Numbered from the stretch's first letter, positions 11,440 to 49,931 are shown. The stretch: DNA of 51,530 nt from a virus (IMGVR_UViG_3300045738_000290:1-51530); one strand, 5' to 3'. The notes: a model not told the origin generated them from the letters alone. Numbers and translations: made by a program.

Positions 11440-11702
11440 TATTCTGTCTCCTCTATTTCTGATGCCCTGTCGAATTTTGTAATCCGACGAATCATAGATA
11501 TACAATCAATAACGGTGTCTAGGCCACATCACTAAATCCTAATTTAAGATTCAGAAATTTGGTCTACTGTCAGAACTCTATTAGCACTTAATTCTTATTA
11601 ATATTTATAAAACTTAAGAGTACTGTTAGTACTTTAATTCTTATTAATATATAATTGTAAATTAAGTATAGTAAGTGCCTACCCCCTTACCCCCTTCCAC
11701 TC

Positions 11703-11745
11703 CTCTGCCCTTTAGGGGACAGCTTATTTATAAGGGTTTTATTGC
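11703..11745 (+). promoter_or_regulatory. Conserved 42-bp element, copy 1 (candidate phage promoter)
   Basis: This stretch aligns with 25655-25697, with roughly four in five bases identical and in the same orientation. It has a CCCTTTAGGGG core, then CTTATTTATAAGGG and a TTTTAT tail. Both copies precede a plus-strand gene block. The TATA-GG(G) end resembles the start region of T7-type promoters, but this is inference. Confidence 0.5.
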
Positions 11746-12019
11746 TATATAAAGATTATAATTTAAAAAATAAAAAATTAATTTTATAGATTTCGACGAA
11801 CGAACCTTAGATCTTTGGTGGTACCCTTATATTTCTGTGAGAACTCTATATTTGGTTGGCTATTCTTTCAGAGTACTGTTAGATTACGTTAGAAAAGTAG
11901 TTTTATAAATGTGAAGGTACGTAAGAGTAAGTAACGCAAGTGCACATTTAAAAAATTACCATTAGAGCTTTATTTCTTGTCATTAGTAATAATTACTTAT
12001 TATTTTCACATTATTATTA

Positions 12020-12134
12020 GATTACGTTAGATTGCGTTAGATTGCGTTAGATTATGTCAGAGTTCTATTAGAGTTCTATTAGAGTGCGTTAGAGTTCCAT
12101 CAGAGTTCCATTAGAGTGCGTTAGAGTTCCAGTA
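12020..12134. repeat. Phased array of eleven 10-11 bp units
   Basis: Eleven head-to-tail units of the types GATTGCGTTA, GAGTTCTATTA, GAGTTCCATCA and GAGTGCGTTA fill 115 bp, an average of 10.45 bp, close to one helical turn. Two places (12062-12076 and 12094-12108) read GTTC-N7-GTTC, the operator form of alphaproteobacterial LexA. Iteron-like origin, or repressor/activator sites, are the main possibilities. Confidence 0.75.
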
Positions 12135-12557: not shown

Positions 12558-12569
12558 GGCCTATCGGCC
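12558..12569 (+). repeat. Intergenic hairpin GGCC-TATC-GGCC, copy 1
   Basis: A four-pair GC hairpin with a four-base loop. About 50 bases from here to the sequence CATCGGCAAACA are repeated after 12885, ahead of the ribosome site of the next small gene. It has no T-run, so it is not a simple terminator. Confidence 0.6.
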
Positions 12570-12623
12570 ATGTCTTCAATGAAGTCAATGGATCTCCCAT
12601 CGGCAAACAAACGAGGTAACGAA

Positions 12624-12883: not shown

Positions 12884-12897
12884 TGGCCTACGGGCCA
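12884..12897 (+). repeat. Intergenic hairpin with C(TACG)G loop, copy 2
   Basis: TGGCC and GGCCA pair around TACG, so the RNA would form a very stable UNCG-class tetraloop. Weaker G-T pairs can extend the stem. The downstream 40 bases match those after copy 1. Confidence 0.6.
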
Positions 12898-12949
12898 TGG
12901 GTTCAATGAAGTCAATGGGTTTTCCATCGGCAAACATAGGAGCCAGATC

Positions 12950-13280: not shown

Positions 13281-13292
13281 GGCCTATCGGCC
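13281..13292 (+). repeat. Intergenic hairpin GGCC-TATC-GGCC, copy 3
   Basis: The same twelve bases as copy 1, just after the stop of the 106-residue gene. The downstream flank (ATGTCTACAATGAGTG) resembles the other copies only for about 15 bases, so this copy has decayed or been truncated. Confidence 0.55.
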
Positions 13293-13402
13293 ATGTCTAC
13301 AATGAGTGAGTAAGTCGGTACTGAATATCGTCAGAATATCGGGCGTTGTATTGGTTCGCTAGTGCTTACCCATAATTCAACCAGCCAAAGGGAATTTACA
13401 AA

Positions 13403-14077: not shown

Positions 14078-14584
14078 ATGATAAAAGAACCACGCTACAT
14101 AATGTTGAAAAATGTTAAAATTCAGTATCCAAAACTGAAAAACTCTGTTAATTTCCGAGGAAGTGACCAGTGGGAATGTGGCATTATCACTGAGGATGCC
14201 GACCAGGCAACCGAGTGGAACGACAAATTCATCGGCAAAGTGAAACCGAATGATCCAATGAAACCAACCGTTTGGACTGCTTCCTTAAACCGGAAAGTGT
14301 TAACTAAAAGCGGCGAGGGATCTGGTCGTGTCCGTGTTGTCAACGCTGACAAACAACCACTGACAGATAAACAGTTACTGAAAATCGGCAATGGCACACT
14401 TGCGAACGTGATCTTGTTCCAAGGACCATACGATAACGAATTCGGTAAAGGTGTATTCAATTCACTGACCGCCATCCAAATTCTGACTCTGGTAGAGTTC
14501 GAAGGTGGGATGGACCCGATGGACTTTGACCTCGAGGGTGAAGGCGCTGTCATAGAAGGTGCCTCTGAGGGCGACTTGTTCTGA
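14078..14584 (+). CDS. Single-stranded DNA-binding protein, T7 gp2.5-like
   Basis: A 168-residue protein with an OB-fold pattern: YIMLKNVKIQYPKL at the start, WTASLNRKVLTKSGEGSGRV in the middle, and GNGTLANVILFQGPYDNEFG then FNSLTAIQILTLVEF near residue 130. The C-terminal tail is acidic and ends in Phe (EGASEGDLF), the hallmark of T7 gp2.5 and other SSB tails that contact polymerase and helicase. The start at 14078 is chosen over longer upstream frames, which are not gene-like and overlap the previous gene. The end of this gene is duplicated at 15129. Confidence 0.8.
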   Translation: MIKEPRYIMLKNVKIQYPKLKNSVNFRGSDQWECGIITEDADQATEWNDKFIGKVKPNDPMKPTVWTASLNRKVLTKSGEGSGRVRVVNADKQPLTDKQLLKIGNGTLANVILFQGPYDNEFGKGVFNSLTAIQILTLVEFEGGMDPMDFDLEGEGAVIEGASEGDLF

Positions 14585-14657
14585 TAAGCTACCTACACAC
14601 GTCAATTCTGCCAAGGGCTACCTACGGGTGGCCCAAAGGCCTGACAGCCCGACAATA
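14561..14657 (+). repeat. 97-bp direct repeat, copy 1
   Basis: This copy begins within the last codons of the ssDNA-binding protein gene and runs 73 bases past its stop. It matches 15129-15225 with only two differences, both in the first 13 bases. The 470 bases between the copies carry two or three small genes. Confidence 0.9.
14615..14634 (+). repeat. Eight-pair hairpin with C(TACG)G loop
   Basis: GGGCTACC pairs with GGTGGCCC (one G-T pair) around TACG, predicted as a UNCG-class tetraloop. An identical hairpin is at 15183-15202 in the second repeat copy. It is not followed by T residues, so RNA processing, stability or a recognition role is more likely than termination. Confidence 0.7.
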
Positions 14658-14661
14658 CCGA

Positions 14662-14676
14662 CAGAGGGTGCCTCTG
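14662..14676 (+). repeat. Six-pair hairpin with three-base loop
   Basis: CAGAGG, loop GTG, CCTCTG: a perfect stem with a three-base loop, 55 bases before the next gene. This is the geometry of N4 virion RNA polymerase promoters (5-7 pairs, three-base loop; centre A on the minus strand), but only one such site is noted here. Confidence 0.4.
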
Positions 14677-15120: not shown

Positions 15121-15128
15121 CTAAAGAG

Positions 15129-15225
15129 GCCTCTGAAGGCCACTTGTTCTGATAAGCTACCTACACACGTCAATTCTGCCAAGGGCTACCTACGGGTGGC
15201 CCAAAGGCCTGACAGCCCGACAATA
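15129..15225 (+). repeat. 97-bp direct repeat, copy 2
   Basis: It includes a relic of the C-terminal codons of the ssDNA-binding protein gene (ACTTGTTCTGATAAGC), now outside any gene, and the hairpin at 15183-15202. It ends 24 bases before the ClpP-like gene and so forms that gene's leader. Confidence 0.9.
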
Positions 15226-15248
15226 TCAACAGAGGAGAAATTTACGAA

Positions 15249-16669: not shown

Positions 16670-16855
16670 ATGAATAAATTCTTTTCAAAAATAAGGAAAG
16701 ATACGATTTCAGACGAATACTGCGTCACAACACTTGCAGATAAAATTAGAGAGCTAAAAAATGTGCAGGTTCCTGATGAAAATATAATAAAAGCATTTAA
16801 TCGTGCTATTCTATGGATGCAACACGACGAATGGCAAAAACGAGAAAGGAAGTAG
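16670..16855 (+). CDS. Small protein between protease and transporter (61 aa)
   Basis: A 61-residue, charged, helical protein (ISDEYCVTTLADKIRELKNV, ending EWQKRERK) with a strong AGGAGG site. It starts one base after the periplasmic ClpP-like stop and ends two bases before the transporter start, so the three form an operon. No family recognised and no membrane segment. Confidence 0.7.
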   Translation: MNKFFSKIRKDTISDEYCVTTLADKIRELKNVQVPDENIIKAFNRAILWMQHDEWQKRERK

Positions 16856-16857
16856 TT

Positions 16858-17895
16858 ATGCTAAAATCATTCTTCTTTAATAAAAAATACGGACCTTATG
16901 CTTGGATAATGCTGGCTATACTGCTAGGAATTAGCTGGTATACGGTAGAAATCCTAGTAATATATAATACATGGAACCGCGAAATCATGGACGCGCTAGA
17001 AACGCTACAAGAAGAACGCTTCTTTACACTGTTCGTCGGATGGGATGTTGAACGAATATGGAACCTTGTTACATTAAACGAGGATTCGATCAATTCAGTA
17101 CCAAGCTTCATAGAGATTGTGGCCCTCTATACACCCATAGCAGTGGGAGGTTCATGGTTAACAGCAAGATACACTTTCAAATGGAGAGAAGCGAACACAC
17201 TTTATTATTTGAAGCGTTGGGAAAAGAGTAAGATAAAAATCGAGGGTGCAAGTCAACGTATGCAAGAAGATCTAATGATGTTTGGTGACATTTTGCAAGG
17301 ACTTGTAACTGGTTTGTTTTCCGCCATTCTTGTTTTGTTCGCCTTCATTCCGATACTCTGGGGACTATCTGAAGCCTTACCGATTTGGGGCGGTGCAATC
17401 ATACCAGGTTTCCTAGTTTGGGTTGCTTTAATTATGTCACTAGGTGGCACATTTGTTTCGGTATGCTTAGCGTGGCCTTTGCCAAAGTTTGAGAAGATGA
17501 ATCAGATTGTCGAGGCAATTTTCAGAAAGCGTTTAGTATTATCGGAAGATAGCTTCGCGATGAGAGCATTTAATGAACTTGCTGATATGTTTGAAGCTGT
17601 TCGTAAAAGCTACTACCGCCTGTTTAACTGGTATATGGGATTCAGCGTTTGGCAGCAGGTATTTGGATTCGTTCTAGGTAATGTTGCACTATTTGCGCTA
17701 GCTCCTGCATACTTTGCCCAAATGATAACGCTGGGGGTACTGTTTCAGTGTCTTAATGCATTCTCGCGAGTAGATAATTCGCTAGGCTTCTTTATAGACC
17801 GCTGGACAGTGGTGGTAAAACTTATTGCGGTGGTTTCGAGAATTAAAACCTATGACCGCGCATTGAAAGATGGTGAATTACAAGGCGAAAGCTGA
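16858..17895 (+). CDS. SbmA/BacA-family peptide transporter
   Basis: A 345-residue inner-membrane protein homologous to SbmA/BacA, the proton-driven importer of microcin B17, bleomycin and Pro-rich peptides. Diagnostic stretches are SWLTARYTFKWREANTLYY, IEGASQRMQEDLMMFGD (about 128-144), FEAVRKSYYRLFNWYMGF and SLGFFIDRWTVVVKLIAVV. These match E. coli SbmA in order. SbmA has 406 residues; the phage protein starts where SbmA residue 80-85 would be, so the first one or two membrane segments are missing. There is no ABC domain. The ATG at 16858 is chosen for its AAAGGAAG site. It lies at the end of the ClpP-like operon. Confidence 0.88.
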   Translation: MLKSFFFNKKYGPYAWIMLAILLGISWYTVEILVIYNTWNREIMDALETLQEERFFTLFVGWDVERIWNLVTLNEDSINSVPSFIEIVALYTPIAVGGSWLTARYTFKWREANTLYYLKRWEKSKIKIEGASQRMQEDLMMFGDILQGLVTGLFSAILVLFAFIPILWGLSEALPIWGGAIIPGFLVWVALIMSLGGTFVSVCLAWPLPKFEKMNQIVEAIFRKRLVLSEDSFAMRAFNELADMFEAVRKSYYRLFNWYMGFSVWQQVFGFVLGNVALFALAPAYFAQMITLGVLFQCLNAFSRVDNSLGFFIDRWTVVVKLIAVVSRIKTYDRALKDGELQGES

Positions 17896-27018: not shown

Positions 27019-27302
27019 ATCAAAAAAGATTTAGTAAAGAGTTAAAAGAGTTATCAAGTCACGACAGGAAAAAGACAGCATCTGACGGTGCTTCAACGGA
27101 GTACTATAAGATTCCACAACATGCGACAGAACTACGCCATCTGATTTCGTTGAAATCCATGAGTAAGTCTCGCGGGGACATCTTCAAAGCTTGTTACCGA
27201 CTTGGGGAGAAAGAAGGTGTGGACATAGGGTACGACCTGAATAAAATGAAGTTCTTTATTGAGGACTTGATAGAAATGAACGAGAGAGGCGAAATGATTT
27301 GA
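27015..27302 (+). CDS. DUF3310 (SaV-like) protein
   Basis: A 95-residue protein. The pattern TEYYKIPQHATELRHLISLK, then RGDIFKACYRLGEKEG and YDLNKMKFFIEDLIE, is that of the DUF3310 or SaV-like domain. Phages often place this domain near nucleotide metabolism genes, and it is sometimes annotated as nucleotide kinase-like. It overlaps both neighbours by four bases, upstream of the ribonucleotide reductase. The enzymatic role is not established. Confidence 0.65.
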   Translation: MNQKRFSKELKELSSHDRKKTASDGASTEYYKIPQHATELRHLISLKSMSKSRGDIFKACYRLGEKEGVDIGYDLNKMKFFIEDLIEMNERGEMI

Positions 27303-29221
27303 AACAAAATGTAAAACCGATGAACGACTACATGAAATTCATTCACACAAGCAGGTATGCTCGTTGGTTAGAAGATGAGGGACGGAGGGAGTCCTTCGAA
27401 GAAACAGTAGATCGTTATATGATTAATATTGTAGGCGACCTAGTTGATAATAAAATTAAGAAAAGTATCAAGGAAGCTATAGTGGGACTTAGAGTGACAC
27501 CTTCTATGCGCTCATTAATGACAGCCGGAGAAGCCGCAAATAGAGACAACACCTGTATGTACAACTGTGCATATATGGCAGTGGACAATGTAAAATCGTT
27601 TGATGAAGCTATGTTAATTCTGCTATGCGGAACAGGTGTAGGTTTCTCTGTAGAAAGACAGTCTATTCAAAAGTTGCCCAGCATCCCTACACTATATGAA
27701 TCTGATACGACAATCGTTGTACATGATAGTAAAGAAGGATGGGCTAAATCATTGAGACAGATGATTGCACTACTGTATGCAGGTGAAATTCCAAAGTGGA
27801 ATGTAGATAAAGTTAGACCTGCTGGTGCTAAGTTGAAGATATTCGGTGGTAGGGCCAGCGGACCAGAGCCTCTGGTGGAACTCTTCCAGTTTGTAATTAG
27901 TACATTTGGGGAAGCTAGTGGCCGCAAGCTAAGTTCAATAGAATGCCATGACATCATGTGCAAGATTGGTGAAGTAGTTGTTGTAGGTGGAGTTCGTAGA
28001 AGTGCTATGATATCTTTAAGTAATTTATCGGATGATAGGATGAGACATGCCAAAAGCGGACAATGGTGGGACCGTGAAGGACATCGCGCACTTGCAAACA
28101 ACTCAACTTGCTATACTGAAAAACCTGATATGGAAACATTCATGCGTGAATGGACATCCTTGGTTGAGAGCAAGTCAGGTGAACGGGGGATTTTCAACAG
28201 AGTCGCATCTACTAATCAGGCTAAGAAGAATGGTAGACGTAAAGTATTAGACAACAAAGGTAACCCAATTCAGTTTGGAACTAATCCATGCTCAGAAATT
28301 ATACTGAGACCTAATCAATTCTGCAACCTGACAGAAGTAGTAATAAGAAAAGAAGATACAATTGAAACCTTGAAAGAGAAAGTTAGACTTGCTACTATTC
28401 TTGGAACAATTCAATCTACTTATACCCACTTCCCATATCTACGTAAGATTTGGAAGGACAACACGGAAGAGGAAAGGCTACTTGGTGTATCCTTAACTGG
28501 TATTATGGACAATCAGTTGATGACGTTATACAATGACGATCTGCCAAATATTCTTGAAGAACTCAAACAGGTTGCAATTAATACAAATACTATATGGGCA
28601 AAGAAGCTGGGCATTTCCGCAGCTACTGCTATCTCTTGTGTTAAACCCAGTGGAACAGTATCCCAAATGGTTGACAGTGCTTCTGGTATTCATGCAAGAC
28701 ATGCTAAATGGTTCATCAGAACAGTACGTGGTGACAATACAGACCCTGTGACACAGTTCATGAAAGACATGGGAATTCCATGGGAACCAGCATTTGGTAA
28801 AGAGGATCAGACAACAGTATTCTCATTCCCAATGAAGGCCCCAGAGGGTGCCATTACCAGAAATGATATGACAGCTATTGAACAGTTGGAACTGTGGTTA
28901 ATCTATCAGAGGAATTGGTGTGAGCACAAGCCATCAGTTACAATAAACGTGAAAGATGAAGAATGGATGGAAGTTGGTGCATTTGTATATAAGAACTTCG
29001 ATGAAATGAGTGGAGTATCGTTACTGCCGAATGATGGTGGGATATACAAACAAGCTCCATACCAAGACTGCACAGAAGAAGAGTACTTGGAAGCGTTAGA
29101 GAAGATGCCTAAAAATATCGATTGGACAAAGTTGTCCGAATATGAATTTGAAGATATGACTACAGGAAGTCAGACAATGGCTTGTAGTGGTTCTTCATGT
29201 GAAATAGTGGATTTAATGTAA
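27299..29221 (+). CDS. nrdJ: Class II (adenosylcobalamin-dependent) ribonucleotide reductase
   Basis: A 640-residue monomeric reductase that makes deoxynucleotides using coenzyme B12. NPCSEIIL (about 329-336) holds the thiyl Cys with its Asn and Glu partners. CMYNCAY (about 85-91) and FCNLTEVV supply the active-site redox pair. ISCVKPSGTVSQMVDSASG is the phosphate-binding loop. The C-terminal ACSGSSCEI has the C-x4-C swinging pair seen in the Lactobacillus leichmannii enzyme. The frame opens with TTG at 27299 in overlap with the previous stop and behind a GAGAGG site; an ATG at 27320 is the alternative. The glutaredoxin gene is coupled at its end. Confidence 0.93.
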   Translation: MKQNVKPMNDYMKFIHTSRYARWLEDEGRRESFEETVDRYMINIVGDLVDNKIKKSIKEAIVGLRVTPSMRSLMTAGEAANRDNTCMYNCAYMAVDNVKSFDEAMLILLCGTGVGFSVERQSIQKLPSIPTLYESDTTIVVHDSKEGWAKSLRQMIALLYAGEIPKWNVDKVRPAGAKLKIFGGRASGPEPLVELFQFVISTFGEASGRKLSSIECHDIMCKIGEVVVVGGVRRSAMISLSNLSDDRMRHAKSGQWWDREGHRALANNSTCYTEKPDMETFMREWTSLVESKSGERGIFNRVASTNQAKKNGRRKVLDNKGNPIQFGTNPCSEIILRPNQFCNLTEVVIRKEDTIETLKEKVRLATILGTIQSTYTHFPYLRKIWKDNTEEERLLGVSLTGIMDNQLMTLYNDDLPNILEELKQVAINTNTIWAKKLGISAATAISCVKPSGTVSQMVDSASGIHARHAKWFIRTVRGDNTDPVTQFMKDMGIPWEPAFGKEDQTTVFSFPMKAPEGAITRNDMTAIEQLELWLIYQRNWCEHKPSVTINVKDEEWMEVGAFVYKNFDEMSGVSLLPNDGGIYKQAPYQDCTEEEYLEALEKMPKNIDWTKLSEYEFEDMTTGSQTMACSGSSCEIVDLM

Positions 29222-39756: not shown

Positions 39757-42700
39757 TTAAGGTGTGGTGAACTGTGCTATGTCGAAACCTGTTTCTTTAA
39801 CCTGATCATTTAGGATCTTCTTGTTTTTCTCAACTAGAGCTACAAAGTCAGTCATAGTTTTATTGTAGTTAGACTTGGAAAAAAGATGTTCAACGAGTCT
39901 AATGATATCTCTATTAGATAGAGAGGTGATGGAATCAAGACCTTCGGACGTAAGATAAACAACTGTATCACCATCTGTAGTTTTAAATTCATTTACCTTG
40001 ACATTAGATTTGTAACCAAGACTGTTTCTAATATTGTTTATAAATCTAGCAGCCTCTTCCATAACCCTAGACTTATATGAATAAATTGTATCTGTTTCCT
40101 TGAGAGGAACTACAGATTTGATAAAAGAAGAAGCTCCATTAAAAGTAAGCCTTTCCTTACCAGTTTTAGGATCTTTAATATAAATACCGTTAACAAGGTC
40201 TGACAAGTATGCAAACCTACCTTCTAAAATCACTTCTTCATCCGGGTCCTTACCCTTAAACTCATCAAGGAAAGCTTTGTGAGAAGCATTCACGGACTTC
40301 CTAGCCTTTTCAAAGTAGTTCCAGTTCATACCGGAGGGCATATTGATATCATACCAAATGTTATTAACATTAGATACAGCAGGTGCGAAGCTGGTAACAT
40401 CTACCTTTATAGCATCGAAGATTTGAGCAAAATAAGGATCTGCCCCAAGTTCTTCCCAGCTTTTTCCTGTGGTCAATAATATCATAGTAGAACCATCAGT
40501 AGATTGCGTAGGAATAACAGCAGAGCTTCCTCTGGCTATACCAGCAGGTTCAGCAGGAAAATGTCTCTTCTTGGCCTGTGCACCAAAAACTTTGTCGCTG
40601 CTCTCTATGTTCAAGGTAGAGGACTCACCTGTCCTCTTGTCTTTTATTTTGACAGAATTGACAGTAGTAGTACTTGGAACAATAACTCTACCACCCATAG
40701 AAATAGGATGACCAGTTGCACTCTCTATTTCAAGAGGAACTCCCATAGCAGCAGACAATAGCGCTGAATTTTGCATTACAGATTTAGCTTTGAAAGTATC
40801 CTTGCCAAACAAATCCATCAAAGCTGCAACTATGTTGGCGTGTTGTGCCTCTATAATCTTAGTATGGGGTACTCCCAAGGTTAAAAGAAGTTTAACATTA
40901 GTTTCAAACTCAGGGTTCCCAGAAAGATACTCATAGAAACTAGCCCTAACCTCTTGATCTAGAGAACCCTCAGATTTACCGTAACCGAATATCATGTTAA
41001 TAGACTTATTCAGAGCTTTATAAGAGCTTAATTCTAGTAGAACTTTTTTAAAGACCACGTTAGTATCGTGAGAAGCTCTGGGAAGCTTTGAATAGTTGCC
41101 GAGCTTAATCTGTCCAATCATGTAGTTCTTAAGATAACCACGCATATCGATAGGCTTGCCGTCTACTTCCATGAGAATAAAATTACTATCTGCTGATTGT
41201 AACACTCCTGAAAGACGTGCTATCTGCTGGCTACCAATCTGGAGTCCCTGTGCGCTGTTGCCGTTAGTCTTACCATCAACATAAGCATTTAGAAAGGTTG
41301 TATGAGGATTGTTATTTCTCATAGCTTCAATAAATTCGGAAAAATCTATCAGGGTTTCCATTACATGGGGAAGATCTTCTCCGAAATCAAGAAGGTATTT
41401 TGCCAAATGGGGGTTGTTATCCATTAAACTACTTAGATTATCATAGTAAAGAGTAGGAAACTGTTGGCTTCCAATTGGCACTTTGTTCTTGAAAGCGGAA
41501 GTTAGTCGGTTCATATTTTTATTATCATGAACACCGACAGCATCTTTTAGCATGTTGCCCCATTTCTCAAATTGGATAATCTTCTGATCACCATCGGGTC
41601 TAACATATTTCCTCAGGGCTTTTAGCTTACTGGCAGGGCGCATCAGACCTTCATCAGACAAGTCGTGAATAACATTACCTTCATTATCCTTAACCTGACC
41701 TCCCAGTAAGATTGTGCCGTACATCTGGAGAATATTATCGTACTCTTTTGAACCTCGGTTAACAACAACTGGTACCGGACTTCTAGTCACAAACCTAATA
41801 ATCTTAGAAGATTGATAGTTAAATACAGTCTGATTAACAGTTGGGCGAGAAGTGAGAGGTTGAAGAAAGTAGGTAAAGTAGTTAACAAGATTTCTATTTA
41901 CAAACGTACTCTCCAATTGCTTTAGGAGATTTCTTTTCTTGATCTCAATAATACGGAGGGATATCTCGGTAGCTTCTTCTCTGCTTTTAGGGCTAACTTC
42001 ATCGTGCATAAACCGAACAATAAGAGAGTCAAGTTTAGCCTTACCAACGCCAAACACATCGGCAAACTTATTATCTGCTATAGGTTTGTCTAAGATAGAA
42101 GATCTAATTAGTAGAATAAGGATTTTAGCCCTTCTGTCATCTACAACGTGACCAACAGAACTCTGGTTATCCAGAGACTCAAGCGCGACAGCAGTTCTAT
42201 GTTTCTCAGTCTTAGTACTCGGTTTGAACTTACCCAGTAGTCCTCTAAGATCGTTACCAACTGGCTTAGAATGGAGAGGTTCTACAACCACCCCGAAAGC
42301 CTCTTGCAAAAGTCCTCTTCCATTTTGGAACTCAAGATGTCCAGCGTTAGTTGGGATGTACCTATTACCAGTACCGAAGTCTTCATACTTCTGACTCTCA
42401 TCTGCATTAAGAGGACGTGAAATTACCATGTCAGGGTTTGACAGTTGGTACACCTGAAGTGCAAATGCGCCAAGGTTAAGCTTTTCGAGTTCTGTCAGAG
42501 GTCTATCCTGAGACTGACCACCGCTACCTTGTCTCTCAACAGCTAACCACTTCTCTATCTCAGAACCTGTTTTAAATGCAAGGTCCATGGGATTAATAAT
42601 TGGCATTGCAACATTTTGAACTTCAGCATTTTCATCCTCAATAACAGAGAACTCTTCCTCAGTAGTTTGATCAGAACCCATAAAAGCATCACTTAGAACT

Positions 42701-43437
42701 TTCTCAGTAACAACTGACAGAGTACTGGCAAAATCCCGAGAGAACACATACCTACCATCTGGATTTATTTCCCAAGCGGATAGATTGTGCAGAATAGCAG
42801 GTAGTGGTTTAACACTCCCACCATCATGCTTTTGTCTTTCAAGTATTTGGGTGAGTTCTTTTCTACTCTCAGCATAAGCTTCTTCGGTGTAAGCATTTCT
42901 CATGTTAGCCATAAGCTGAGTTACAATTGCGGAATCCTTAGTTTGAGGGAATACAGGCATTGTAAGAGGGATTACCTTCATCTCGGGGCCCTTGTTGTGG
43001 TCAACGCCCATACTCTGTACCACATTATCAACTCTACTAAGAACTGACTCTGATGGAGTTTGTGAGACCTCAGAAGAGACTGTCAAATTGAAGTTAATAT
43101 CGTCAGGTCTGGACACAGGCTGGGGGGCCTTAGGCATCTCTGGTGACTCAGAGTTCTCAACAGTACTCATAGCGCTTGGTATGTTACCCTGCTGCGCTTC
43201 TACAACTGGTCCAGCTACAGTTGATCTGTTTACAGGGTTTCCACCAGAGACTATCTCCTGAGCCATTTCAGAAGATACATCAGTTGCTCTTACTTCTGGT
43301 TTATCCATATCTTTATTTGGAATAAAACCGTGAACTTTGAGTTTCCTTAAAAACTCGCTATCCTCACTACCGTCTTGAGAGGGATTCTGACGGGAACTTT
43401 TAGTTTTTACAGATGCCCCAGTATTTACTTTAACCAT
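39757..43437 (-). CDS. Putative virion RNA polymerase (N4 vRNAP-like, divergent)
   Basis: A 1226-residue protein in the virion block. Residues 520-830 and 970-1010 show a single-subunit RNA polymerase plan. PLTSR (Arg531) then FNYQSSKIIRFV stands where T7 has GR..FNPQ. AYVDGKTNGNSAQ has Asp721 as motif A. NKSINMIFGYGKS has Lys811 and Tyr819 eight residues apart as motif B, as in T7 and N4. TQSTDGSTMILL followed by FAQIFDAIKVD has Asp1008 as motif C. The spacings (90 and 197) are close to T7 (94 and 181). The first 450 residues are low-complexity or unknown. It is the last gene of the virion operon. The motifs are degenerate, so loss of activity is possible. Confidence 0.68.
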   Translation of the reverse strand: MVKVNTGASVKTKSSRQNPSQDGSEDSEFLRKLKVHGFIPNKDMDKPEVRATDVSSEMAQEIVSGGNPVNRSTVAGPVVEAQQGNIPSAMSTVENSESPEMPKAPQPVSRPDDINFNLTVSSEVSQTPSESVLSRVDNVVQSMGVDHNKGPEMKVIPLTMPVFPQTKDSAIVTQLMANMRNAYTEEAYAESRKELTQILERQKHDGGSVKPLPAILHNLSAWEINPDGRYVFSRDFASTLSVVTEKVLSDAFMGSDQTTEEEFSVIEDENAEVQNVAMPIINPMDLAFKTGSEIEKWLAVERQGSGGQSQDRPLTELEKLNLGAFALQVYQLSNPDMVISRPLNADESQKYEDFGTGNRYIPTNAGHLEFQNGRGLLQEAFGVVVEPLHSKPVGNDLRGLLGKFKPSTKTEKHRTAVALESLDNQSSVGHVVDDRRAKILILLIRSSILDKPIADNKFADVFGVGKAKLDSLIVRFMHDEVSPKSREEATEISLRIIEIKKRNLLKQLESTFVNRNLVNYFTYFLQPLTSRPTVNQTVFNYQSSKIIRFVTRSPVPVVVNRGSKEYDNILQMYGTILLGGQVKDNEGNVIHDLSDEGLMRPASKLKALRKYVRPDGDQKIIQFEKWGNMLKDAVGVHDNKNMNRLTSAFKNKVPIGSQQFPTLYYDNLSSLMDNNPHLAKYLLDFGEDLPHVMETLIDFSEFIEAMRNNNPHTTFLNAYVDGKTNGNSAQGLQIGSQQIARLSGVLQSADSNFILMEVDGKPIDMRGYLKNYMIGQIKLGNYSKLPRASHDTNVVFKKVLLELSSYKALNKSINMIFGYGKSEGSLDQEVRASFYEYLSGNPEFETNVKLLLTLGVPHTKIIEAQHANIVAALMDLFGKDTFKAKSVMQNSALLSAAMGVPLEIESATGHPISMGGRVIVPSTTTVNSVKIKDKRTGESSTLNIESSDKVFGAQAKKRHFPAEPAGIARGSSAVIPTQSTDGSTMILLTTGKSWEELGADPYFAQIFDAIKVDVTSFAPAVSNVNNIWYDINMPSGMNWNYFEKARKSVNASHKAFLDEFKGKDPDEEVILEGRFAYLSDLVNGIYIKDPKTGKERLTFNGASSFIKSVVPLKETDTIYSYKSRVMEEAARFINNIRNSLGYKSNVKVNEFKTTDGDTVVYLTSEGLDSITSLSNRDIIRLVEHLFSKSNYNKTMTDFVALVEKNKKILNDQVKETGFDIAQFTTP

Positions 43438-43453
43438 TATATGTTCCTTTTAG

Positions 43454-46400
43454 CTAATCTTTTCCAGATACCAATTTTTTAATTGAGGTCATAGGTGCTA
43501 TAAGAGGAGTAGCACCTGCGATATCGTATATGCCCTCCTCTCTATTTCCTGAGAGTAGATTACCGACTCCAGAAAGCAAGTTTGTAACAGGCCCAAGAGC
43601 AGGTACATTACCCTGAACTGCATTAGCAATCCAACCTATAGGACCGCCACTTCTCTGAGGGTACAGAGGGTGAGCTAAGTCCATAATTCTTTCAGATGTT
43701 CCAAGCATACCAGAAGAGTTTATAGCTCTTCTTATTTTCTGGTTATCTTCTAGGTAAGGGTTTCCGCCCTTGCCGTACTTTATAAGATCTTTCAAATACT
43801 GAGAAGCATAACCTAGCATAATCATAGTTACCATTACAGCAAAAGTATTATACTTTATGGATGGTCTACCTCTCTTTACATAATCCCCCCACATTCTAGG
43901 TATATGGTGAGAGGTAAAGGTAGCAATGAAACCATTGAATTGCGTAAGTAGTGCAAATCTTGGATCAAGATACCATAGAGGTCTATTAGCAGCACCAGGA
44001 AGTGGAACTGAGTCATTGACCCAATTGTACATCACAGTTTGTTCTTGATCTGCCTTAAACTCTTGTTCAGCATCTGTAAGAGGTTCTCTAAAAGTACCAT
44101 CTTCATTTATCAGGTCCATATACCTGTCAACTGCCATGCCCAGATTTCTGAGTTGGCTTCTTGCGTTTCTCTGCTCGTTGGTGTCGGGATCAGTCCTTCC
44201 ACTGTATTTTTGAGCTAGAAGTATTTGAAGCTTACCAGTCATAAAATCAGCAGCAAAACCAACTCTAATATTACGAGTTAAATCTGTGAATGGGGCTGTT
44301 CCGTTATATTTGAAGAAATTGGTAACCCACACATTTTGAATGTCAGATACACTTTCTGCACCTGTCACAGTAGCAGCGCCTGTTTCTCTTAGGCCAAACC
44401 CCAAGGTCTTATTTACTCTTCTCTGCTCACTCTTAGTGATATGCTCATGTCCTGTCCACCACTCTGCAGTAGTCATAAATAGAACATCATAGAAAGTATC
44501 CATCATATTCCTACCTATGTTGGCGAGCCCTTTTTTCCCAAATATTTCCTTCCGACTTAGACCGAGCACAGTCATAGCCATTTCTGGGAAAGAAGCTAGC
44601 ATTGAAAGAGGTAGACCTACGAAAAGAGTTATAAGAGAAGCATGTTTTAACTTTAACAATACATCGGCTGCAGCAGTACCATTCTTAGGCCGTTTATAGT
44701 TACCGGATTGTGACTGAACAATATTGTGAACAGCATTCATAGTAGAATTGATAACTTCTTCTGGTGCTCCCTCTTTTGCAGCTTCCCGAGCAAGATGCTC
44801 AAGCTTAACACCACCTCTACCTACATAAGTATTGTACGATATAAATCTAGCAGCACTCTTATTGAACTCCCTGATATTCTTACCGAGGTCTTGAAAATAA
44901 AAATCAGCTAAGTCAGGGTTCTCAGAGAGAGCCATTGTTCTTTTCTTAGTAGCAGAAGGGAGGATCCCATTGGTCATCATATCAAATGCATCCTTATCAC
45001 TAGACACACTTGTAACATCACCATCTCCGGTAATAAGATCAACAACATCCAAGGCTATAGCCATAGAGACTCCATAAGAGTCTGCTATAGCTTTACCAAA
45101 CTCTTTACGCTTTTTAATAGCTCTGTTTTTATCAACTGCTCTAAACCTAAGAAGGTAGAGGTCCTTCTTCTTAAACTTAGTCTGTTCTTCTAAACCTTTT
45201 GCATTCCAAGCTTCATTTTGCATATCTCTTGCTGTTTCAGACAGCTTTTGAAGGTGGCCATCCTCAAATTCACCGTTGGCCTCTATAAGAGGCTTAATTA
45301 CCTTCTGTTGCAAAGCAGTATACTTGCTCCAATCAAAAGGATTCTTTTCGTTTTTAATTTTTTTAGCTAAGTTAAACTCGTGATGTTTCAAGTAGTCATC
45401 AGCTATCTTATAGAAATCCCTATTAAACAGTTTAGCTGCTTTTTCATCTCTAAGGATACCTCCGTAACCTTTGGTGTATTCACCTACATTCAGTCGCGTA
45501 TCAAGCATAGCTGAGGTTTTCATAATGAAACCTTCATAGTTTGGGCCTGAGAAATTCCTATTAAGTATGTCTAGGAAACCGTTGGCCATTCTTAGAAGTG
45601 AAGGGTATTTCATCCCCATCTCGTTAGTATAGCCTCTTTTATTTTTACCTTGACCTGCAAATAACTTAACAGTTCCAACTGTAATCAATTCAGCTGCTAC
45701 CTCTGTCGCAGTTCTATTCTTAAGAGTATCTCTGTGCTCTTCTACTCTAATTGGCATAACGTCTGGAGCTATATCTGAGAAATCCTGTTCAGACATGTAT
45801 TCTTTTATACTGAGATCGTCTGTGTCTTTATCAAGTCTGTCAGCCATAGTAGCTTGCTTATCACCAACTGCAAGGTCATGGCTTACATTAGCCCAAGCAC
45901 CTGCGTCGACGAGGCCACCACCTACACCACCAATAGCACCACCTACGACACCACCAGCTGCTGCTGCATTCATAATTCTATTAAGGAATTCTGACTGAAA
46001 CACACCTTCTTTGATTATCCCAAAACCTGCCTTTTCAGTATTTGCTCCTATCTGTGCAACTACTTCTTGGGCAACCTCTGTAGCGGATTCTACTGTAGCA
46101 GATCCTGCAAACTTTGTTACGACACTTCTAGATAGCTCTCTAGCAGTCAAGTGTGATTTTGCAAAAGCAGCAGACTCCTCAAAGAGGTCAGATAGCGATC
46201 TTCTGTTGGAATTCATAACAATTTGTCTAGCTGCATCCAGAGATATGCCTTTCTCGGTAGCTAGTCTTTTGGCTGTATTTGCAGTGAACACACCTAGGTC
46301 TGCACCCTTCAATCCGGGAATGACACCAAGTGCCCTGAGACCCAACCTCTCAAAAGAAGCCTGTATGAGTCCAGAAGTAAGAGCAGCTGTCACATTCTTA

Positions 46401-47425
46401 TGATCATCCTCTTGCTCATTATATACCTGACCAGACATTAAAGCTGCGGGACCGAGTAAGGAGATCGCTAAGGCAGCTGCTGTACCGACTACAGGAGCTA
46501 CTGCTGAACCAGCTAAAGCTCCACCAATTGACACAAACATAAATGGAAGTGTCATAGCTCCCATGTTACCCATCCAGTTAATGGTATCATGGAAACCTTC
46601 AATCTCTGCCAGATCAACTATTGTAGTTGGGTTTAATCCAATTTTAAAATTAGAGTAGGCTTCACTTACCTCTGCTCGGTACACCATCTCTTCATCACCT
46701 AGCATATTCCCCATAGCTTGTACAAAACCATACCATGAAGCACCGTTTCCAATAAGTGCATTGTCGAATGCTACAGCCTGTTGATTCTTAGCTGAACCAT
46801 CGTAGTTAGTACCTCTGGCCAAGTAAGCTATGCCAGAATAAGACTCTGGTGAAGCTCTGAAGTCATAGATGTTAGCGGCTGTACCCTTGACAATCCTGTC
46901 CACACCTTCAAACTTAGCTTCTTGAACTATCCGTCTAGCTCTTGCAGCTTCAGGATCAGAACTTGCACCAACTTGTAGCCTGTCGTAAACTCCTTCTCTG
47001 TAAATATTTAACTCACGTTGAGAAGAGTACCCTGTTGGACTCTGAAGTCCAGTAGATAGTAGGTACTCTGACCACAGTTCGCCTGTATCAGGGTTCCTAA
47101 TATCTACTATCTTTCTTTTACCTTCATCACTGGACACTTCATCAGATATGATTGGCTCAGTGAATCCCTTAGCACGGGCTAAGTCAGTGTACTGTTTATA
47201 AGCTTCTAAACCACCCTGTTGTGGGTTGTTTTTGAAATCTGCACCAGCAGCAACAAAAACTGACTTACCTGTCTCAGGTGCTCTTATACCTTTCTGACGA
47301 AAAAGTTCACCTGTAACACTACTCTTTAACGTATCTGCATCAATAGCGTAGTACTCCGAATCACCTATTTGTGGGTTGATTGGGAGTGCGGCCAGTGCAT
47401 TTTTCATTGCGGTTTCAAAACTCAT
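43454..47425 (-). CDS. Large internal virion/ejection protein with nuclease-like N-terminus
   Basis: A 1323-residue protein. Residues 25-55 (YYAIDADTLKSS, FRQKGIRAPETG) and about 105-132 (KIVDIRNPDTGELWSEYLL) resemble the core of staphylococcal-nuclease-type domains (DxDT, R-x-x-GI-APE). Several hydrophobic Gly/Ala segments (MTLPFMFVSIGGALAGSAVA; AAAAGGVVGGAIGGVGGG; ITLFVGLPLSMLASF) could insert in the host membrane. This fits a protein ejected with the DNA to form a channel, like T7 gp15/gp16. It has an AAGGAAG site and lies between two other large virion proteins. Confidence 0.65.
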   Translation of the reverse strand: MSFETAMKNALAALPINPQIGDSEYYAIDADTLKSSVTGELFRQKGIRAPETGKSVFVAAGADFKNNPQQGGLEAYKQYTDLARAKGFTEPIISDEVSSDEGKRKIVDIRNPDTGELWSEYLLSTGLQSPTGYSSQRELNIYREGVYDRLQVGASSDPEAARARRIVQEAKFEGVDRIVKGTAANIYDFRASPESYSGIAYLARGTNYDGSAKNQQAVAFDNALIGNGASWYGFVQAMGNMLGDEEMVYRAEVSEAYSNFKIGLNPTTIVDLAEIEGFHDTINWMGNMGAMTLPFMFVSIGGALAGSAVAPVVGTAAALAISLLGPAALMSGQVYNEQEDDHKNVTAALTSGLIQASFERLGLRALGVIPGLKGADLGVFTANTAKRLATEKGISLDAARQIVMNSNRRSLSDLFEESAAFAKSHLTARELSRSVVTKFAGSATVESATEVAQEVVAQIGANTEKAGFGIIKEGVFQSEFLNRIMNAAAAGGVVGGAIGGVGGGLVDAGAWANVSHDLAVGDKQATMADRLDKDTDDLSIKEYMSEQDFSDIAPDVMPIRVEEHRDTLKNRTATEVAAELITVGTVKLFAGQGKNKRGYTNEMGMKYPSLLRMANGFLDILNRNFSGPNYEGFIMKTSAMLDTRLNVGEYTKGYGGILRDEKAAKLFNRDFYKIADDYLKHHEFNLAKKIKNEKNPFDWSKYTALQQKVIKPLIEANGEFEDGHLQKLSETARDMQNEAWNAKGLEEQTKFKKKDLYLLRFRAVDKNRAIKKRKEFGKAIADSYGVSMAIALDVVDLITGDGDVTSVSSDKDAFDMMTNGILPSATKKRTMALSENPDLADFYFQDLGKNIREFNKSAARFISYNTYVGRGGVKLEHLAREAAKEGAPEEVINSTMNAVHNIVQSQSGNYKRPKNGTAAADVLLKLKHASLITLFVGLPLSMLASFPEMAMTVLGLSRKEIFGKKGLANIGRNMMDTFYDVLFMTTAEWWTGHEHITKSEQRRVNKTLGFGLRETGAATVTGAESVSDIQNVWVTNFFKYNGTAPFTDLTRNIRVGFAADFMTGKLQILLAQKYSGRTDPDTNEQRNARSQLRNLGMAVDRYMDLINEDGTFREPLTDAEQEFKADQEQTVMYNWVNDSVPLPGAANRPLWYLDPRFALLTQFNGFIATFTSHHIPRMWGDYVKRGRPSIKYNTFAVMVTMIMLGYASQYLKDLIKYGKGGNPYLEDNQKIRRAINSSGMLGTSERIMDLAHPLYPQRSGGPIGWIANAVQGNVPALGPVTNLLSGVGNLLSGNREEGIYDIAGATPLIAPMTSIKKLVSGKD

Positions 47426-47444: not shown

Positions 47445-49931
47445 TTAATTTAGATTTGTCATTAGGTACACCATAAACGGTGTTGCACCCGGAATCGAAC
47501 CGTCCTTAGATTTATCAATAAACACCTGCCTCCGTTTGTGTGTTAAACCAATGTCCTTATCTTCGTCATAGTCACTCATATAGTCTTTGTAAGCAGCAGC
47601 AAACAGCTGTTGTGCTACAGAAGCTGCCTGAGGTGCAGACGGATCTTCCCCTGCTTCATTCAGTATCTTATCCTTTAAGAGTAAATAAGTTTCAGTATCT
47701 ATTACTACCTCTCCATTTTTGCCGACTGTTTTGAAAGCGTCAGACCAAGTTTCTGTAGAAAGAAGTATAGTAGCATCTTCCATATGGTGGAAAATACTAT
47801 ACTTTTTACTTCTTATTGCCAACTCGGCAGCAGTTTCTGCAATCCTATTTAGATCAACTAAGTCAAAACTTTTACCTGAGTATCTGTAGAAATCACGTGA
47901 CCCAGCTATGAAGTCAGCCAAATCAGATTTTAATTTAAATTTATCCTCCGAAGATAACTCATTGTCGGAATCCTTAAACGAATCTATAGCACTATCTATA
48001 ACTTTTTTGACTACAGGTAGTCCCTCTTTAGAGAACTCAGCCAGTTGGTCTGCAGGAGACAATTCACTAACCTCTGCGCCTTCAGGAAGTTTAACTCTAT
48101 TCCTAGAATAGTCAACATAGAAAGTACCATTTTTATCTTCTGCTGGATATATAACATCAAAGCTAAAGGTTTTTGCATTCCAGTAATACTCTGGTGAGTT
48201 TTTATCTACTTTGAAAGGTATACCGTTAACTTTTTCTTTAAGATCTTCGTAATCTGAGGATTTCTCAAAAAGATTTATCGATTTATTTGTCCATTTACCG
48301 CTCTCTTGAAGCCTCTGTACCAATGCATCTCTAGACGCAACTCCTGCCATAGCAGCATTCAATGAGAATTTCATAGCACCACTATGAGAACTACCAGCTA
48401 CCCTTGAGCCAATGTAGAAAATACCCATACGTATAAGGTCCTTACCTTGTATACCCATGATATCAGTGAACCAGTCAATGGCTTTACGCCAAGATTTTGG
48501 TTCTTCCTTAGCAAGGTCTTCTAATCCTTTAGCTACTTCATAAGGAACAGAGAGATCCTGAAGACCGAGAGTTTCCGAGCTATCTCCACCGTAAGATAGT
48601 TTTATGATAGAGTTACCAACTTCCGCTGCTACTTCTGCTCCCTGTATATCAGCAGCTTCCATACCATCAACGATAACTTGTTCCTCTGGAGTTACTGTAT
48701 CTTCAGGATTTACCAGCTGTCTAGTTAGAGACTCTCTCTGACTCTCTGTTAGATCGTCCCTCTCAAGTTCTTTCCTTATTGCATCATTATTAAGGTCCAC
48801 CATAGCAGAATTAATTTCGGGTGTAGAATCTATCTCAGCAGATAGTGTGATATTATCTTCAACTAGCTGGGATTTTAATCTTTTTATATTACTCTGTATT
48901 GCTATTAAGCGTTCATTCAGAGATTGATATTTTGGATTTAATGGAGAAATACCCTCAAGTTTTTTGAGGATACTTTTGGACTCTGCATTTAGTTTATCAA
49001 TTTCAACTGGAATTTCTTCTATGTTTTTATTGAGTTTTTCTATATTCAACCTATTGAATCTTTGTTCTTGCCTCAGGATTTGCCAAGGGAACTCTTTTAT
49101 TGTATCAGTTGTAGTTGGACCCATACCGTAGCTAATAGGTTTACGAGCGTCAAATGCAGCACGTATTTCTTCTGGTGTACGATTATCTGGTAGACCACCA
49201 ATAGAAGGAGGTACAGTTGGATTAGCTGGTAATGTTAACGGAATTTGAGATCTGCCCAAATCAGCATCGATGTTTGGCGATGTTAAAGCAGGAGGAAGAT
49301 TAACACCAGCACCTCCACCAATCTGTGGAGTTACTCTATCACTTATACCACCGCTTAACCTCTGCCTTTCAGTGTGCATATCATTGAGGGCGTACACTTC
49401 GTTATTTCTTCTAGCTTGATCAGCACTTAGCCCAAACGTCTGCTCAAGCCTTGGGTCAGGAACCCTACCAGTGTTACTGTTCTGGTAACCTAGAGCGGGT
49501 ACGGCATCAGGCATAGATGGAACTGCCAGCCTGTGCTCAGTTGATAGGGAATTTTCATAATCCCTTGCTTCCTGAAGCCTCTGTTGGTAAGCTTGGTATT
49601 CCTGCTCTTTCAGAGATGATTGATCAGGTACATTTGGACCACTCATCTCATCTTGTTTCCAAGGTCTTGAAGGAGGTACATCTGAAATCTCAGGAACTCT
49701 AGCGGCGTTGCGTTCATCGACGCCTTCATTTAGCATATCTATATTGGAACTAGCTGCTTTAACTTTATAATCCCAATCAGCTTTTCTTGCCGCCAGTTCA
49801 GCTTTGTATTGTTCAACAAAGGCTTTAGATTCCTCTATAGCTATCCTGTTATTTTCTTCTATAGTCTTATTTCTTTGTGCCAATGCCTCAATATCGGACA
49901 TGGGAACTTCACTCATCTGGATTTGAACCAT
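47445..49931 (-). CDS. Large virion protein, function unknown (828 aa)
   Basis: An 828-residue protein in the block of ejected or internal virion proteins. The N-terminus is a charged coil (IEENNRIAIEESKAFVEQYK), residues 110-250 are Pro/Asn/Gln-rich, and a coiled coil runs at about 285-360. The C-terminal half is soluble with a possible hydrophobic turn (IRMGIFYIGSRVAGSS). No catalytic motif is recognised. Size and neighbours suggest an internal core protein. AAGGAAAT precedes the ATG, and it starts two bases after the hydrolase gene. Confidence 0.7.
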   Translation of the reverse strand: MVQIQMSEVPMSDIEALAQRNKTIEENNRIAIEESKAFVEQYKAELAARKADWDYKVKAASSNIDMLNEGVDERNAARVPEISDVPPSRPWKQDEMSGPNVPDQSSLKEQEYQAYQQRLQEARDYENSLSTEHRLAVPSMPDAVPALGYQNSNTGRVPDPRLEQTFGLSADQARRNNEVYALNDMHTERQRLSGGISDRVTPQIGGGAGVNLPPALTSPNIDADLGRSQIPLTLPANPTVPPSIGGLPDNRTPEEIRAAFDARKPISYGMGPTTTDTIKEFPWQILRQEQRFNRLNIEKLNKNIEEIPVEIDKLNAESKSILKKLEGISPLNPKYQSLNERLIAIQSNIKRLKSQLVEDNITLSAEIDSTPEINSAMVDLNNDAIRKELERDDLTESQRESLTRQLVNPEDTVTPEEQVIVDGMEAADIQGAEVAAEVGNSIIKLSYGGDSSETLGLQDLSVPYEVAKGLEDLAKEEPKSWRKAIDWFTDIMGIQGKDLIRMGIFYIGSRVAGSSHSGAMKFSLNAAMAGVASRDALVQRLQESGKWTNKSINLFEKSSDYEDLKEKVNGIPFKVDKNSPEYYWNAKTFSFDVIYPAEDKNGTFYVDYSRNRVKLPEGAEVSELSPADQLAEFSKEGLPVVKKVIDSAIDSFKDSDNELSSEDKFKLKSDLADFIAGSRDFYRYSGKSFDLVDLNRIAETAAELAIRSKKYSIFHHMEDATILLSTETWSDAFKTVGKNGEVVIDTETYLLLKDKILNEAGEDPSAPQAASVAQQLFAAAYKDYMSDYDEDKDIGLTHKRRQVFIDKSKDGSIPGATPFMVYLMTNLN

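Follow-up and report, generated by a model that had tools for sequence, protein, structure and literature searches.

The protein encoded on the minus strand at positions 39757..43437 of the window, by which we mean the whole 51,530-nucleotide stretch of viral DNA analyzed here (IMGVR_UViG_3300045738_000290), is best explained as a compact polymerase with a complete set of catalytic residues, belonging to the same branch of single-subunit RNA polymerases (RNAPs) as the virion RNAP (vRNAP) of phage N4, and as an enzyme that would be packaged in the virion and carry out early transcription. We assign this reading, with packaging and early transcription included, a probability of about 0.8. Single-subunit virion RNAPs are a hallmark of the Schitoviridae, where they have about 3500 residues. 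The protein described here, P0001, has 1226 residues. What is new is a compact RNAP, apparently of virion type, that lacks the giant flanking domains and is paired with a single-chain T7-like RNAP; new as well are its sequence distance from N4 and how widely it occurs in a large phage lineage with hardly any cultured members.

The gene and its catalytic motifs

The open reading frame on the minus strand is real and starts with ATG. The earlier note had recognized polymerase-like motifs in it, and all of them lie where it placed them: DGKTNG with D721, K811 and Y819 at a spacing of eight residues, TQSTDGST, and FAQIFDAIK with D1008. The motif intervals of 90 and 197 residues are likewise correct. 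In the window, motif A (DGKTNG) occupies 41260..41277, motif B or the O helix (K807-K821) 40975..41019, the TQSTDGST segment (residues 977-984) 40486..40509, and motif C (FAQIFDAIK) 40405..40431, all on the minus strand. These assignments are based on conservation and on alignment with MAFFT, which in two modes paired D721, K811, Y819, D981 and D1008 with N4 residues D559, K670, Y678, D929 and D951, respectively. N-terminal to motif A, a T/DxxGR-like segment and the basic helix that follows it (L528-R548; 41794..41856, minus strand) form the counterpart of TRVGR...K437/R440 in N4.

A protein family recovered through its genomic neighborhood

P0001 alone gave no match in Pfam, no meaningful match in PHROG and no sequence match in the PDB. 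BLAST found no match either, tblastn against 50,697 phage records was empty, and a single-sequence scan of IMG/VR with P0001 returned no relative. Since P0001 alone matched nothing, its relatives were reached via the neighboring T7-like RNAP. The portal, the T7-like RNAP and neighboring proteins identified Roseobacter phage CRP-7 as the one relative in culture, and aligned T7-like RNAPs used as a query yielded 56 IMG/VR loci, in which the next minus-strand gene encodes a large protein wherever the contig is long enough. The 27 syntenic proteins, that of the window included, form three BLAST groups, which are mutually related according to hhalign (probabilities 95.6, 78.0 and 95.5). Polymerase motifs played no part in choosing these proteins, and D721, Y819, G820 and D1008 are nevertheless present in every one of the 27. 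Position 811 is Lys in the window's group and in the third group and Arg in the CRP-7 group. Classic forms of the motifs are also found: motif B of one relative (L015) reads FRPINKTVTMVFPYGK, and motif C of the CRP-7 group contains IHDA.

A second search, for which the window's own group served as the query, recovered 67 IMG/VR loci, and the polymerase gene is present in all 67. Complete family members have about 1116-1385 residues. Among 42 non-redundant members (<90% mutual identity), invariant positions include D721, K811, M815, Y819, G820, D981 and D1008, while R531, K545 and R548 are each conserved in 40/40, two of the 42 members having gaps there. With D721, K811, Y819 and D1008 each in 42/42 homologues, the motif match that had been proposed from a single sequence goes beyond chance. 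Because the DNA patterns of the 67-locus search reach over motif A and the last part of motif B, selection contributes to the conservation of the DGKTN and YG columns. This does not apply to R531, K811, D981 and D1008, which lie outside the patterns and whose invariance is therefore not an artefact of selection. Within the T/DxxGR motif, relatives carry GR (as AGR, TGR, QGR or NGR), and the window carries SR. Outside the motifs the family diverges rapidly: P0001 shares about 25-29% identity with two relatives, L015 and L018, compared with about 54% for the T7-like RNAP of the same loci.

Family members end mostly in QYYAH or QFWAH, with Gln1222 in 42/42 and the final His in 40/42; P0001 itself (residues 1222-1226) ends in QFTTP, unlike most of them. 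By analogy with T7 RNAP, which ends in FAFA, this conserved C-terminal end may be a functional tail.

When 84,980 genomes of bacteria and archaea were scanned, two short metagenome-assembled contigs came up and nothing else, and the family therefore looks viral. Two members, L158 and L159, come from contigs that had been placed in Bacteroidetes and Dehalococcoidia metagenome bins; these contigs are probably viral. Searching phages by tblastn with two further family members found nothing, and a literature search, with subscription papers mostly beyond its reach, found no earlier recognition of the family.

Relationship to the N4 virion RNA polymerase

We built a reference profile from N4 and related phages, 11 N4-type vRNAPs in total and nearly all from the Schitoviridae as classified, compared the family profile with it using hhalign, and obtained a probability of 94.6 and an E-value of 7.1e-8, with motif A in register; against a first profile of five vRNAPs the values were 91.4 and 8.9e-7. 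The match spans the N-terminal domain through motif A, aligning FNYQSSKIIRFV with YNPQSAKLVREAI of N4 and DGKTNG with DGVTNG. The best E-value among 40 column-shuffled decoys was 0.21, and two reversed-profile decoys gave 0.07 and 0.23. Residues 760-1140 taken alone did not produce a significant hhalign match to N4, so that the assignment of motifs B and C is based on the MAFFT pairing, on conservation and on the fold.

Against the T7-like RNAPs that these phages encode, the P0001 family gave no significant match (probability 0.6, motif A in register), and the N4 vRNAP profile also failed to match these enzymes. As neither the P0001 family nor the N4 profile matches them, we consider N4 to be the closest known relative. 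Three family members (L018, L023 and L015) match the T7-like RNAP family phrog_414 across motifs A-B, with E-values of 2.9e-5 to 2.5e-3. P0001 shares its superfamily and fold with the RNAPs of T7 and the Autographiviridae, and its motif intervals are of similar length. However, its motif A is DGKTNG rather than the DGSCSG of T7 RNAP, and the T7-type role in the same genome belongs to another protein, P0005. The reading proposed earlier is right about a single-subunit RNA polymerase and has to be revised as to its type, which is that of N4 and not of T7, DGKTNG matching DGVTNG in N4.

The resemblance to N4 gp50 and its mini-vRNAP extends to a homologous catalytic domain with corresponding residues in T/DxxGR and motifs A, B and C, to the lack of cysteine in that domain, and to the presence of a T7-like RNAP in the same phage. 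The differences are considerable: gp50 has about 3500 residues as opposed to 1226, identity is about 11%, and P0001 has no counterpart of the N-terminal region of about 1000 residues or of the C-terminal region of about 1400 residues of the N4 enzyme. In N4 vRNAP these terminal domains have been connected with binding to the membrane and with regulation. Unlike N4, the window phage encodes a separate 1323-residue protein next to the polymerase, its T7-like RNAP is one chain of 788 residues instead of a gp15/gp16 heterodimer, and its capsid and portal are of the SU10 type. The Schitoviridae combination of a heterodimeric T7-like RNAPII and a giant vRNAP is thus absent from this phage, which has the single T7-like chain together with an SU10-type MCP and portal.

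Predicted structure

A first AF2 model, built from 23 sequences, had a pTM of 0.65, and the 50 PDB matches listed for it were single-subunit RNAPs only. With 41 sequences, residues 225-1226 were modeled with a mean pLDDT of 82.9 and a pTM of 0.83. Foldseek reported 69 PDB matches at E<=1e-3, and among the 50 matches listed all are single-subunit RNAPs, including mitochondrial and T7 enzymes and N4 mini-vRNAP with promoters (3c2p, 2.1e-13; 3c3l, 4.5e-13; 2po4, 5.4e-13). Matches in the BFVD viral library include annotated vRNAPs. Global TM-scores were 0.4-0.5 with high rmsd, which means that the fold is clear while the placement of domains is uncertain. The expectation of a right-hand polymerase core, examined by structure prediction and Foldseek, survived in that a polymerase fold is predicted.

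In the model D721 closes a strand that is followed by a helix, K811 lies within a helix, just past which Y819 is found, and two strands are joined by a tight turn that contains D1008. Judged from this predicted secondary structure and the N4 alignment, D721, K811 and D1008 may come together in one site, as the earlier note required of a polymerase. DSSP also assigns a long beta-hairpin to residues about 916-952 (40582..40692, minus strand), between motifs B and C. In the T7 and N4 enzymes the promoter specificity loop lies at this position, and the predicted hairpin may be equivalent to it; N4 D901/R904 were used to place the loop relative to the hairpin (PMC4496689).

The T7-like partner and conserved gene order

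The gene for P0001 is the last of the late operon and is convergent with the early/middle strand, which is the place that gp50 has in N4. Convergent with it is the gene for P0005 (36741..39107, plus strand), a single-chain T7-like RNAP of 788 residues (Pfam RNA_pol, 2.9e-44; phrog_414, 1.1e-96), as expected from the earlier claim that the phage also encodes a T7-type enzyme. A convergent T7-like RNAP adjoins the P0001 homolog in 67/67 loci. Because both RNAPs occur together in every related virus contig that was found, the ocean phages of this large uncultured group probably bring along an enzyme of their own with which to activate their genes at infection. At two loci (L112 and L115) the T7-like RNAP is encoded as two ORFs, of 342 and 311 residues, with a gap of about 330 bases; the split recalls the heterodimeric RNAPII of N4, or it may be due to an insertion or frameshift.

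The earlier note had stated that N4 has no T7-type enzyme, which is wrong, since N4 has the heterodimeric RNAPII gp15/gp16 (PMC4496689). The pairing of a virion RNAP with a T7-like RNAP is therefore not new in principle, and what stands of the proposed new transcription scheme is that the enzyme is compact, that its partner is a single chain and that the phage lineage is new.

On the other side of P0001, also on the minus strand, are genes for a large virion or ejection protein of 1323 residues (43454..47425), which matches the virion structural protein family phrog_6958 (4.9e-16) and has conserved synteny, and for a putative further ejection or internal virion protein of 828 residues (47445..49931), so designated from its position and synteny. 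Both are free of cysteine. The putative ejection genes are adjoined by a cell wall hydrolase (PF07486; 49934-50587, minus strand).

The same arrangement is present in CRP-7, the only cultured relative found, where a T7-like RNAP on one strand is followed by the convergent 1235-residue gp33 and two more very large proteins. Gp33 is syntenic and cysteine-free and has the IHDA form of motif C, but it differs in the Arg at the motif B Lys position and is annotated as hypothetical, not as a polymerase. BLASTP of P0001 against gp33 detected no similarity; the gp33 family profile matched the P0001 family with a probability of 78 and an E-value of 1.8e-5. The published description of CRP-7 names the T7-like RNAP only (PMC6918029). 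As CRP-7 is in culture, the polymerase claim is directly testable.

Putative virion packaging and early transcription

There is no cysteine in P0001 or in its large neighbors P0002 and P0003. In the family, 37 of the 42 members are cysteine-free, and the total is 5 Cys in 48,145 residues; by comparison, the neighboring T7-like RNAPs contain 13.8 per 1000, and no cysteine occurs in N4-type vRNAP domains. Its absence has served before as a feature by which N4-like vRNAPs are recognized (PMC10747016). Other structural proteins of the window phage are also low in cysteine, and we therefore treat its absence as support and not as proof. From the place in the late operon, the large cysteine-free neighbors, the absence of cysteine in P0001 and the N4-type homology, we infer that P0001 is packaged in the virion. 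N4 vRNAP is one of three ejection proteins (PMC12633501); as P0001 is without N4's N- and C-terminal domains, its ejection route stays putative. A putative vRNAP of 2270 residues has been proposed for Stenotrophomonas phage StenR_269 and some Zobellviridae (PMC10747016). Like P0001, it would be a vRNAP from outside the Schitoviridae that is cysteine-free and encoded in late genes; that proposal was based on size, helicity and lack of cysteine only, with low-confidence models.

In the proposed mechanism, a few copies of P0001 would be packaged in the virion and threaded unfolded through the tail together with the other ejection proteins, there being no cysteines to cross-link. Once refolded inside the host cell, the enzyme would serve the first early genes independently of host RNAP, ahead of any need for that enzyme or the T7-like RNAP, and its transcription would perhaps help to pull the DNA in. 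This early transcription would lead to synthesis of P0005, which would in turn transcribe later gene classes.

P0001 could instead be an active single-subunit RNAP that is made late in the cell, is left unpackaged, and serves late genes as a second intracellular phage RNAP; it is encoded among late genes, after all, and the phage's other RNAP is intracellular. We regard this as unlikely, given that the end of the late operon beside large cysteine-free proteins is the place of N4 gp50, that the nearest characterized relative is the packaged N4 enzyme, and that 1226 residues without a single cysteine contrast with the content of the intracellular T7-like RNAPs. In addition, early genes could not benefit from an RNAP whose synthesis begins only in the late phase.

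Less probable still is that P0001 descends from a polymerase but is no longer catalytic and, as an ejection protein, is merely part of the DNA channel. R531, D721, K811, Y819, D981 and D1008 are invariant in the 42 members despite low overall identity, which is best explained by purifying selection on catalysis, and this outweighs for us the place among putative ejection proteins, the Arg at the motif B Lys position in the CRP-7 group and the very fast divergence outside the motifs, which speak in its favor. It is also hardly credible that the motif match is coincidental and P0001 an ordinary internal virion protein: the motifs were first read by eye and P0001 alone is without a database match, but conservation among homologs, the N4 profile match, the results with decoys, and a confident model with nothing but single-subunit RNAPs among its listed structural matches speak against it.

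A bolder extension of the packaged-polymerase reading, which we regard as tentative and somewhat improbable as a whole, is that a pair of phage RNAPs carries the entire program of this marine lineage with no need for host RNAP: the injected N4-type enzyme, in its compact form, would act on early genes at hairpin promoters, and a single-chain T7-type enzyme would then follow; the compact form would perhaps be nearer to the ancestral virion RNAP behind N4's giant. A family one third the size of the N4 enzyme shows what a packaged polymerase can dispense with and provides biochemical and structural work with a small enzyme. It also singles out dozens of contigs from ocean phages in which an imported enzyme likely begins transcription.

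Candidate promoters and the early region

In N4, early transcription by vRNAP from three hairpin promoters is followed by the T7-like heterodimer RNAPII (PMC4496689). The window has a GC hairpin repeat in three copies on the plus strand (12558..12582, 12885..12909 and 13281..13305), which lie where the early strand begins, every copy with a small ORF downstream of it. The repeat has the form GGCC-TATC/TACG-GGCC followed by ATGnnTnCAATGA, the first copy being GGCC-TATC-GGCC followed by ATGTCTTCAATGA; two copies have a 4-bp stem and a 4-nt loop and one has a 5-bp stem and a 4-nt loop. It had no match in 100 shuffles. These copies are candidate early promoters, and we treat them as a lead only, since the stems and loops are unlike those of N4 and the repeat was not found in relatives, with which no hairpin family is shared. 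T7-type promoters sought as intergenic repeats gave only matches resembling ribosome-binding sites, and a sigma-70 scan of the early region found 9 sites where 9.7 were expected, which is no excess.

Several other features of the window were observed. An AT-rich segment (11588-12134) with many TTAGATTGCGTTAGA-like repeats lies at the divergent late/early strand switch and is a possible origin or genome end. A direct repeat of 112 nt, 95% identical and with internal inverted repeats, is found at 14556-14667 and 15124-15235. The plus strand also encodes a class II (B12-dependent) ribonucleotide reductase (27299-29221) and a 360-residue SbmA/BacA-like protein (16813-17895; Pfam PF05992, E 4.7e-64), relatives of which occur in only three records of the phage collection.
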